64,000 nt of DNA from Agaricicola taiwanensis (GTDB lineage Bacteria > Pseudomonadota > Alphaproteobacteria > Rhizobiales > Methylopilaceae), in assembly GCF_014635245.1 (NCBI RefSeq), contig NZ_BMCP01000002.1, positions 1 to 64,000 of the forward strand. The letters are read 5' to 3'. The first letter of the stretch is position 1; each line of letters opens with the position of its first letter. Below are positions 14,160-45,847 of this stretch, one piece after another. The notes beneath the pieces were generated by a model, which did not search any database, had not been told where the DNA came from, and saw only the letters and a list, made by a program, of their open reading frames with translations. The position numbers and the translations under genes are program-made.

Positions 14160-14948
14160 CTAGGCGCTATGGTTCAACAGCTCCATGGCCTCGGCATGCA
14201 CGCGCTTGTCGCCGGCGGCGATGATGCGGCCGCCCTTGGTGGCGGGCTGGCCATCCCAGGTCGTGACCACGCCGCCCGCGCCCTCGATGATGGGGATGAG
14301 GGCGACGATGTCGTAAGGCTGCAGTCCGGCCTCGATCACGAGGTCGATGTGGCCGGCCGCCAGCATGCAATAGGCATAGCAGTCACCCCCGTAGCGGGTG
14401 TGCTTGGCCCTGGCCTCGACGCGCTGGAAGGCGGGAATTTCATCCATGTCGAAGATCGCCGGCGATGTCGCCGACAGCACGGCGTGAGCGATGTCCGGGC
14501 AGTGCCGTGTGCGCAGGCGGCGGTTGCCGTTGGGCCCCTGATAGCGGGCTGAGCCGCCATCACCGGAAAAGCGCTCACGGGTGAAAGGCTGATGCATGAG
14601 GCCGAAAGCCGGATTGCCGCCACGCAGAAGCCCAATCAGTGTCCCCCAGGCAAGAAGGCCGGTGATGAAGGCGCGGGTGCCGTCGATGGGATCGAGCACC
14701 CAGACAAATTCGGCATCGGGGTGTTCGGACCCATATTCCTCACCGACGATGCCGTGGCTCGGGAAGGTCTCCATGATCAGGCGCCGCATGGCCGCCTCAC
14801 CGGCGCGGTCGGCGGCCGTGACCGGATCAAACATGGCGCCGGCACCTTTGTCCTCGACGCCGATGGACGAGCGGAAGAAGGGCAGGATGGCCTCGCCTGA
14901 CGTGGCGGCCAAACGATCGACGAAGGCTTCGAAGTCAACGGCCGTCAT
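14160..14948 (-). CDS. hisN: Histidinol-phosphatase / inositol monophosphatase family protein
   Basis: A 262-residue metal-dependent phosphatase. Metal ligands are visible in GEEYG (E70/E71) and DPIDGT (86-91), with the distal aspartate in [16 protein letters not shown] near 218. RAFITG right after DPIDGT is typical of the HisN branch that dephosphorylates histidinol phosphate in actinobacteria and alphaproteobacteria, whereas SuhB types read TNF at this place (compare the gene at 62342). The start at 14948 (MTAVDF) is preferred over an upstream ATG at 15011 whose added residues are basic and unconserved-looking. No other his genes lie in the window. Confidence 0.83.
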
Positions 14949-15079
14949 ACAACTGTCCCATTCACCTGTAAGATGCCCCGCAGTGATAGGTGAGACGCGC
15001 CGGCGGCGCAATCACCCCACGCTGCTCCTGAGACTGGGCATATGAGACCTTAGTCTTAAGATAAAATCGGCCGGTGAGC

Positions 15080-15108
15080 TTGATTTTTGTGCGGCGCAGT
15101 AATATTAT
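15080..15108 (+). promoter_or_regulatory. Sigma-70 promoter of predicted sRNA
   Basis: TTGATT (15080-15085) and TATTAT (15103-15108) are separated by 17 nt. A start near 15115 fits the downstream hairpin and terminator layout. Confidence 0.65.
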
Positions 15109-15114
15109 TTGTGC

Positions 15115-15205
15115 ATTGCGATACCGCACCTCGTGCGGTTTTCGTGGCCCTTCTTGGGCGTTTCCTCCCTAGACTTGGGCCGCTGTCTCAGCGGCCTTAT
15201 TTTTT
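15115..15205 (+). ncRNA. Predicted autonomous small RNA
   Basis: About 90 nt with its own promoter. Order of elements: hairpin CCGCAC-ctc-GTGCGG (15124-15138); hairpin GCCC-ttctt-GGGC (15147-15159); an unpaired TTTCCTCCCT stretch (15161-15170), complementary to ribosome binding sites; and terminator stem GGCCGCTG-tct-CAGCGGCC (15178-15196) followed by TTATTTTTT. This is the architecture of a trans-acting Hfq-type sRNA and recalls the rhizobial suhB/MmgR (alpha-r8) family; that family link is from memory. The terminator overlaps the stop codon of the opposing gene at 15204. No open frame of note lies within it. Confidence 0.6.
15178..15205 (+). terminator. Rho-independent terminator of predicted sRNA
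   Basis: A perfect 8-bp GC stem with a 3-nt loop, followed by TTATTTTTT on the plus strand. Confidence 0.85.
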
Positions 15206-16088
15206 ACTCGGCGGCCGCCCGCTCGGGCAGAAGGTCGTCAAAGGGGAAGGTTATCAGCTCATCGATCATCTGCCCCAGATCCGCCGCCAGCCGGTCGAAG
15301 CCGTCGTTCCTGGTCAGGGTCGCCTCATCCATGTAGAGGCCGCGGTTGATCTCGATCTGGAGCGCGTGAAACCGCATGGCGGGGTTGCCGTAATGTTCGG
15401 TGATATAGCCGCCGGCATAGGGCCTGTTGTGCATGACCGCGTAGCCGAGCCGCGTCAGGGCCGCCGCCACGAAAGCGGTGAGCTCGGGCGCGCAGCTGGT
15501 CCCATAACGGTCTCCCAGCACGATATCGGCACGGAATTTCTCCGGTCGCCGCTGGCTGTTTGACGGCATCGAATGGCAGTCGATCAAAACCGCCGCCCCA
15601 TGCGCCTGATGGATGTCGATCAACGCGTTGGTCAGCGCCTGATGATAGGGCTTGTAGAGGTTCTCGATACGCTCCAGCGCCGCGGCGACCGGCAGGCGCG
15701 ACCGGTAGATTTCCTGGTTCTCGCCTACGAGACGCGCGATGGTGCCGAGGCCGCCGGCCACACGCAGCGACCTCGTATTGGCGTAAGGCGGCAGCCGTCC
15801 ATCGAACATGCGCGGGTCGAGTTCGTAGGGCTCGCGGTTCACGTCGAGATAGGCGCGGGGGAAATGCGCGCGCATGAAGGATGCGCCCTTTTCCACAGCG
15901 CCCACGAAGAGCCCGTCCACGAAGGTGTCTTCCGAGCGCCGGAGCGTCAGCGGATCAAGCCGCGACGTGGCGAGGAAGCTCTTGGGGTAAATCGATCCGG
16001 AATGGGGCGAGTTGAACAGAACGGGTGCTCGCCTCGCCGCGGGCGTGAAGAGATCGAAGGGGGCTGGAAAGTCGTTGGTTTCTGTCAT
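15204..16088 (-). CDS. N-formylglutamate amidohydrolase
   Basis: A 294-residue zinc-type hydrolase that cleaves N-formyl-L-glutamate to glutamate and formate (last step of one histidine degradation route), or a related N-acyl amino acid. Family segments are FNSPHSG (about 26-32), DVNREPYELDPRMF (about 81-94), LIDCHSMPS (near 162) and EINRGLYMDE near the C-terminus. The start at 16088 (MTETND) is preferred to an upstream GTG/ATG that lacks a ribosome site. It diverges from cpdR with 180 nt between, a neighbourhood conserved in rhizobia. A second, fused family member lies at 20987. Confidence 0.88.
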   Translation of the reverse strand: MTETNDFPAPFDLFTPAARRAPVLFNSPHSGSIYPKSFLATSRLDPLTLRRSEDTFVDGLFVGAVEKGASFMRAHFPRAYLDVNREPYELDPRMFDGRLPPYANTRSLRVAGGLGTIARLVGENQEIYRSRLPVAAALERIENLYKPYHQALTNALIDIHQAHGAAVLIDCHSMPSNSQRRPEKFRADIVLGDRYGTSCAPELTAFVAAALTRLGYAVMHNRPYAGGYITEHYGNPAMRFHALQIEINRGLYMDEATLTRNDGFDRLAADLGQMIDELITFPFDDLLPERAAAE

Positions 16089-16761: not shown

Positions 16762-16836
<75 letters not shown>

Positions 16837-44811: not shown

Positions 44812-45804
44812 TTAATCGACTTTCAGAATGATCTTTCCCATGTGGGAACTGGTTTCCATCAGTTCGTGGGCCTCCCGCGCCTGCTCCAGGGGAAGGGTGG
44901 CGTGAACGGCGGGCTTGAGGCGGCCTGAGGCGATGAGGGGCCAGACCTCGCGCTCCACGGCCTCTGCGAGCTTCGCCTTGAAGGCGATGGAGCGGGCGCG
45001 CAGGGTGGAGCCCGTCAGTATGAGCCGCTTGGTCATCAGAAGCCTGAGGTCGGCCGTCACGCGCGAGCCTTTGAGAAAGGCGATCTGAACGATGCGCCCC
45101 TCCTCGGCGGCGGCCTCCAGATTGCGCCCGGTGTAATCGCCTCCCACCATGTCCAGGATGACGTCAGCGCCCTTGCCCTCCGTTGCCGCCATGACTTCGG
45201 CCACGAAATCAGCCGTGCGGTAGTTGACGGCATGGTCCGCCCCCCAGCCGAGGCAGGCGGCGAGTTTTTCCTCCGATCCTGCTGTGGCGATGACGCGGGC
45301 GCCACGCGCCTTCGCGATCTGAATTGCGGTCATGCCGATGCCGCTGGTGCCGCCATGCACGAGGAAGGTCTCACCCTCGCGGAGCGCCCCGCGCTCGAAG
45401 ACGTTGTTCCAGACCGTGAAGGTGGCTTCGGGCAGGGCGGCCGCCTCAACCATCGAGAGCCCCTCAGGCACCGGCAGGGCGCAGCTTTCGGCCACCGTCG
45501 CATATTGCGCATAACCGCCACCGGCCATCAGCACCGCGACCTGATCGCCTACCTGCCAGCGGGACACGCCCGGGCCGGTCTCGGCCACCGTGCCGGCGAC
45601 TTCCAATCCGGGAAGATCCGACGCTCCAGGTGGCACGGGGTAGTTTCCCTTGCGCTGCAGGATATCTAGCCGGTTCACGCCTGCCGCGGCCACGCGCACC
45701 AGGATTTCTCCGGGAGCCGGGGCGGGGACAGGGCGCTCCTCCAGGACCAATGCCTCCGGGCCGCCGGGGCTGGCAATGGCGATGGCGCGCATCATGGCGG
45801 GCAT
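44812..45804 (-). CDS. NAD(P)H-quinone oxidoreductase (MDR superfamily, PIG3-like)
   Basis: 330 residues of the zinc-independent quinone oxidoreductase branch of medium-chain dehydrogenases. The catalytic domain starts MRAIAIASPGGPEALVLEE, GLEVAGTVAETG near 70 is conserved, and the nucleotide-binding fold has HGGTSGIGMTAIQIAKARGA near 147. It reduces quinones with NADPH. ATG 45804 has AGGGAGGA just upstream. A 15-bp inverted repeat lies between it and the divergent DUF1192 gene. Confidence 0.92.
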   Translation of the reverse strand: MPAMMRAIAIASPGGPEALVLEERPVPAPAPGEILVRVAAAGVNRLDILQRKGNYPVPPGASDLPGLEVAGTVAETGPGVSRWQVGDQVAVLMAGGGYAQYATVAESCALPVPEGLSMVEAAALPEATFTVWNNVFERGALREGETFLVHGGTSGIGMTAIQIAKARGARVIATAGSEEKLAACLGWGADHAVNYRTADFVAEVMAATEGKGADVILDMVGGDYTGRNLEAAAEEGRIVQIAFLKGSRVTADLRLLMTKRLILTGSTLRARSIAFKAKLAEAVEREVWPLIASGRLKPAVHATLPLEQAREAHELMETSSHMGKIILKVD

Positions 45805-45847
45805 GGTTTTTCCTCCCTGAAGCGTCAAATGCTATGCTGTGTAGCAC

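Follow-up and report, generated by a model that had tools for sequence, protein, structure and literature searches.

An alpha-r8 (MmgR/suhB) small RNA with two predicted PhaR operators may link carbon storage to nutrient uptake

The gap between a hisN/suhB-like gene and an N-formylglutamate amidohydrolase (FGase) gene in the 64-kb stretch of DNA analyzed here (the window) holds, on the plus strand, a member of the known MmgR/alpha-r8/Rfam suhB small RNA (sRNA) family. The structure of this RNA is conserved, as are two PhaR-type palindromes in tandem in its promoter, and the same genome encodes PhaR, PhaC and a phasin with PhaR-type boxes. It is probably a trans-acting sRNA that is repressed by PhaR, the sensor protein for the storage plastic PHB, via the two operators and blocks mRNAs of uptake genes and possibly of phasins, an arrangement that suggests a link between carbon storage and nutrient uptake.

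Using cmscan, RF00519 (suhB/MmgR, alpha-r8) was matched at positions 15140 to 15212 of the plus strand with 69.8 bits (E value, 2.3e−12), against a gathering score of 41 bits. This bore out the guess of an earlier note, made from the letters alone, that the region encodes an RNA of the suhB/MmgR class. The 10-mer, hairpin, terminator and FGase neighbor by which the alpha-r8 family has been described (PMC12559287) are all present and, together with the RF00519 score, support the assignment; the FGase linkage, usual for alpha-r8 in most species, was identified through PF05013. Both neighboring genes lie on the minus strand, with the start of hisN at 14948 and the stop codon of FGase (15204 to 15206) overlapping the U tract of the sRNA, and the gap between them is free of protein genes, as the note had stated. 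Coordinates of all features are given in Table 1.

Table 1. Features of the sRNA locus, in positions of the window
Feature	Position	Strand	Basis or remark
−35 element TTGATT (CTTGA/C in relatives)	15080-15085	+	Promoter scan; CTTG nearly invariant there among relatives
Predicted PhaR box 1, core TGCGGCGCA at 15090-15098	15084-15104	+	Between −35 and −10
−10 element TATTAT	15103-15108	+	Promoter scan
Predicted PhaR box 2, core TGCATTGCG	15112-15120	+	YGCRNYGCR core match over predicted transcription start
Predicted sRNA transcript	15115-15205, start 15115-15117	+	Placed from −10 and S. meliloti box-to-start distance
5′ stem-loop SL1, outside Rfam model	15118-15145	+	Covariation; 5′ GCG is right half of PhaR box 2
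Hairpin 1, GCCC-UUCUU-GGGC	15147-15159	+	RF00519 and fold
Single-stranded anti-Shine-Dalgarno 10-mer UUUCCUCCCU (seed)	15161-15170	+	RF00519, fold, alignment
Intrinsic terminator	15177-15205 (9-pair stem 15177-15197, U tract 15198-15205)	+	Stem followed by TATTTTTT
hisN/suhB-like inositol monophosphatase family protein, neighbor	14163-14948	−	PF00459
N-formylglutamate amidohydrolase (FGase), convergent neighbor	15204-16088	−	PF05013

Matches to alpha-r8 above the cut-off were found in 51 of 61 related genomes, often several per genome. The sRNA core was identified in 74 of the 80 hisN-linked loci from other genomes, which places the feature far beyond chance. These loci were from named Hyphomicrobiales, including Hansschlegelia, Methylopila, Afipia, Bradyrhizobium, Rhodopseudomonas and Rhodoplanes. 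The genomes nearest to that of the window make up a single family, within which the window's genome is a separate genus. Three hisN loci carried neither FGase nor an sRNA within 3 kb.

The predicted transcript of ∼90 nt (15115 to 15206 in the calculation) folds at −39.5 kcal/mol (z = −5.3), and none of 200 shuffles folded as well. Three stem-loops were predicted with UUUCCUCCCU left unpaired between them and the terminator stem last, the same anatomy as the two hairpins, exposed CU-rich loop and strong terminator read earlier by eye, and the loop and hairpins are conserved: hairpin 1 was invariant in 50 aligned sequences. In that alignment 8 of the 10 SL1 pairs had changes on both sides, and 5 of the 9 terminator pairs covaried. 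Overall, 94.2% of all pair cells were standard, compared with 37 to 58% when the partners were slid by 1 to 3 columns, and the median SL1 fold z over 73 distinct 5′ parts was −4.0. MmgR has been described with three stem-loops (PMC7143759), and thus the 5′ stem as such is not new. The covariation of SL1 and the overlap of its GCG with box 2, of which no earlier mention was found in the literature surveyed, look new; the right half of box 2 doubles as a strand of the RNA's 5′ stem, and it is unusual for a single sequence to serve two such roles.

These data bear on two other explanations of the region. Open reading frames of 75 and 158 codons cross it mechanically, but the chance that it represents a short unannotated protein gene, or merely inverted repeats that arose at random, is vanishingly small. 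The length of SL1 varies from 20 to 65 nt regardless of frame while its pairing is kept, and on this and the Rfam match a protein-coding reading of 15080 to 15205 was rejected. A cis element, either an antisense RNA or a terminator controlling read-through of an FGase-hisN operon, would fit the position of the sRNA, which is antisense to the minus-strand genes on either side; in sister genomes these two genes abut. It is nevertheless very improbable, given that copies at unrelated loci retain both seed and structure, and that on the minus strand the terminator lacks a U tract; these copies, together with the sRNA's own plus-strand promoter and terminator, led to rejection of the cis-antisense reading.

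The near-consensus promoter with 17-nt spacing that had been proposed, TTGATT-17-TATTAT (15080 to 15108), was the sole promoter-like site on both strands of 14950 to 15300, with 0.3 expected from shuffles. Two PhaR-type operators in this promoter were absent from the earlier note. The Sinorhizobium meliloti PhaR (AniA) motif WNWDDNYGCRNYGCRNHHWNW, taken from PMC12542648, had a single full match in the 64-kb window (0.25 expected), identified from sequence alone as a dyad between −35 and −10 (box 1), at −31 to −11 relative to the predicted start. By sequence comparison, its position is that of the EMSA-confirmed PhaR site of S. meliloti mmgR (3046679 to 3046699; start, 3046712) (PMC12542648, PMC7143759), with equal spacing to the start (13 nt beyond the 21-mer, here at 15117). 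Unlike S. meliloti mmgR, for which one site is on record (PMC12542648), a second predicted box lies here over +1, its core 22 nt after that of box 1. The S. meliloti phaP1 and phaP2 promoters likewise have two PhaR palindromes each, either of which is enough for binding there (PMC12542648); however, the palindromes there lie on either side of a protein gene's −35, whereas here the −10 of an sRNA is flanked.

Both PhaR-type boxes were present at all 74 hisN-linked copies of other Hyphomicrobiales (69 exact and 5 with one mismatch), spaced 19 to 22 nt apart; a −10 of the CATATT type is conserved between them, and CTTG occupies the −35 position. Over the 61 related genomes, tandem boxes were found at 33 of 84 sRNA copies, compared with 0.07 in dinucleotide shuffles, and unlinked alpha-r8 paralogues mostly did not carry them. 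A second alpha-r8 copy in the window's genome (C1:473925-473999, minus strand; 72.5 bits) has the same core and one PhaR-like core, TGCGCCGCA, upstream, with the tandem absent; the seed therefore works under other control too. Tandem PhaR operators at an alpha-r8 sRNA appear to be new, within a surveyed literature that lacks the main work on the mmgR promoter and on alpha-r8 phylogeny.

PhaR is encoded in this genome at C4:176462, with both domains present, as is the PHA synthase PhaC; a predicted palindrome in the promoter thus coincides with a PhaR gene in the genome, as in a PhaR regulon. The main phasin gene was also preceded by paired boxes in each of 30 genomes, that of the window included, which supports reading the palindromes as PhaR sites within the clade. 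The palindromes could instead be read by another factor, NtrC-linked or another regulator, so that expression would follow nitrogen and not PHB; mmgR of S. meliloti is also induced by nitrogen limitation, with NtrC required (PMC8401924). Only a slim chance is given to this explanation, however, as the palindromes are complete matches to the PhaR motif, the same boxes precede the phasin genes of the clade, and the boxes are absent in five of six PhaR-less genomes. The sixth, in which boxes were present and a PhaR match was absent, is a 67%-complete assembly.

Control by PhaR is consistent with how the sRNA is distributed. In four genomes of one sister genus, searches for PhaR, PhaC and phasins found none. 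The hisN-FGase gap in these PHB-less sisters is 13 to 19 nt with no sRNA between the genes, whereas in PHB-positive kin of the same family it spans 258 to 441 nt and holds the sRNA. The sisters keep a box-free alpha-r8 copy elsewhere, with the same seed. The linked copy occurs throughout the order, so that its loss in the PHB-less sisters seems the simpler reading; erosion of its promoter was rejected, as the linked gene is absent and an unlinked, box-free copy remains. The alpha-r8 copy in the fifth PhaR-less genome is box-free as well. Across genomes the association between PhaR and boxes was modest (Fisher p 0.022, uncorrected for kinship), and the absence in the four sister-genus genomes represents one loss event. 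In the literature surveyed, the absence of the FGase-linked copy jointly with the PHB genes looks new.

The earlier proposal that the loop could pair with the ribosome binding sites of many mRNAs was sharpened by target prediction, in which the best-matching starts appear to belong mostly to solute-binding proteins. The pattern GGGAGGAA(3-10)ATG, complementary to the seed, occurs at 29 places in this genome. Nineteen plausible genes could be identified at these starts, 12 of them for solute-binding proteins of four unrelated kinds (TctC, NMT1-type, SBP_bac and DctP) and 3 more for TctB. A control word of similar Shine-Dalgarno (SD) strength, MAGGAGGY, was found at 133 places, and the first 30 examined yielded 8 real genes, none of which encoded a solute-binding protein (12/19 versus 0/8; Fisher p 0.003). 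The starts of 30 TctC genes were more seed-complementary than 104 background starts, drawn from the window and selected genome stretches with heuristic start choices (p 3e−7, and 2e−5 once pairing with the 16S tail is subtracted), with GGGAGG in 40% compared with 2% of starts; TctC paralogues share ancestry and their ribosome-binding words are not independent, and these p values are therefore optimistic. With 40 TctC-type solute receptors (PF03401) in 3.76 Mb, the genome has a large tripartite tricarboxylate uptake set. Solute-binding proteins look new as a target class for the FGase-linked alpha-r8 copy in the literature surveyed.

A different main action, on PHB metabolism via phasin mRNAs, with the match to uptake genes a by-product of strong ribosome sites, was also considered. 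The main phasin start at C2:1140083 has the ribosome binding site CTAGGGAG, which forms 8 perfect pairs with the seed and occurs at only 6 starts in the genome, and its promoter carries PhaR-type boxes. In S. meliloti, MmgR lowers PhaP1 and PhaP2 protein with mRNA unchanged (PMC8401924), and PHB and phasin protein both increase when the 10-mer is lost (PMC12542648, PMC8401924), a phenotype that differs from an uptake phenotype and counts against uptake genes as the main targets. We nonetheless consider a primarily phasin-directed role unlikely. The pairing was not conserved in kin (32 phasin starts; p 0.026), the match of the uptake genes to the seed exceeds what SD strength explains, and the PHB-less sisters keep alpha-r8 copies with the same seed, which therefore serves more than PHB. 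On the 32 starts, phasin was rejected as a conserved direct target and retained as an alternative for this genome.

From the features described above we infer transcription of the sRNA, binding and repression by PhaR, use of Hfq and each of the targets in the following scheme. Free PhaR would repress the sRNA promoter via the two operators bracketing the −10, as in S. meliloti, where PhaR binds mmgR in EMSA and AniA/PhaR represses it (PMC12542648, PMC8401924). Under carbon surplus, PHB granules would titrate PhaR off the DNA, the promoter would open and the ∼90-nt RNA would accumulate. The unpaired UUUCCUCCCU, probably on Hfq, would then pair with ribosome sites and stop translation, most likely of mRNAs for periplasmic solute-binding proteins and for the TctB subunits of systems that import organic acids; the phasin mRNA at C2:1140083 may be a further target. 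A wider version is more doubtful than otherwise and is put forward tentatively. It holds that the sRNA acts as a storage gauge, shutting off, in a manner dependent on PHB granules through the tandem operators, translation of many solute-binding proteins for organic acids and other solutes (TctC, NMT1-type and DctP), with the PhaR-boxed copy kept or lost with PHB metabolism across Hyphomicrobiales and paralogues under different regulation keeping the seed. If true, a cell full of PHB would stop importing carbon. The double operator, the joint absence and the target class make the role of FGase-linked alpha-r8 copies testable in many species.

Compared with S. meliloti MmgR, the sRNA shares core sequence, hairpin, 10-mer and terminator, but is ∼90 rather than 77 nt long and has a second genomic copy. 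A 2025 statement has it that no direct base-pairing partner of MmgR has been identified (PMC12559287). The same 10-mer, several copies per genome and the FGase linkage (SisA) are found in SisA to SisD of Caulobacter crescentus, also alpha-r8. Anti-Shine-Dalgarno action has been demonstrated there, with experiments on SisA, which pairs with targets by means of the 10-mer and represses them (PMC12559287), whereas here it is predicted from sequence. SisA has been reported to be nearly constitutive, and a search for a promoter motif common to SisA to SisD found none (PMC12559287), in contrast to the PhaR-type operators here. CU-rich anti-SD seeds with mostly solute-binding-protein targets are likewise known from S. 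meliloti AbcR1 and AbcR2 (alpha-r15) and NfeR1 (PMC8844928). Those RNAs, however, are of a different family, carry two or three seeds, are located at lsrB or elsewhere and have other regulators. AbcR sRNAs have two anti-SD motifs in 114 to 121 nt, whereas one CU-rich motif in ∼90 nt was found here, and cmscan returned no AbcR-type match in the window.

A second known sRNA in the window, BjrC1505 (RF02356; 46088 to 46237, plus strand; 78.5 bits), exposes a GCCUCCCU loop similar to the MmgR seed; with this CCUCCC loop, it could serve the same targets as the alpha-r8 sRNA. A start at 45802 to 45817 (minus strand; GGGAGGAAAAACCATG), 270 nt from BjrC1505, belongs to a zinc-type alcohol dehydrogenase/quinone oxidoreductase gene and has a seed-complementary ribosome binding site. 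The only tRNA gene in the window, for tRNA-Val (GAC), is located at 16762 to 16836 on the plus strand.
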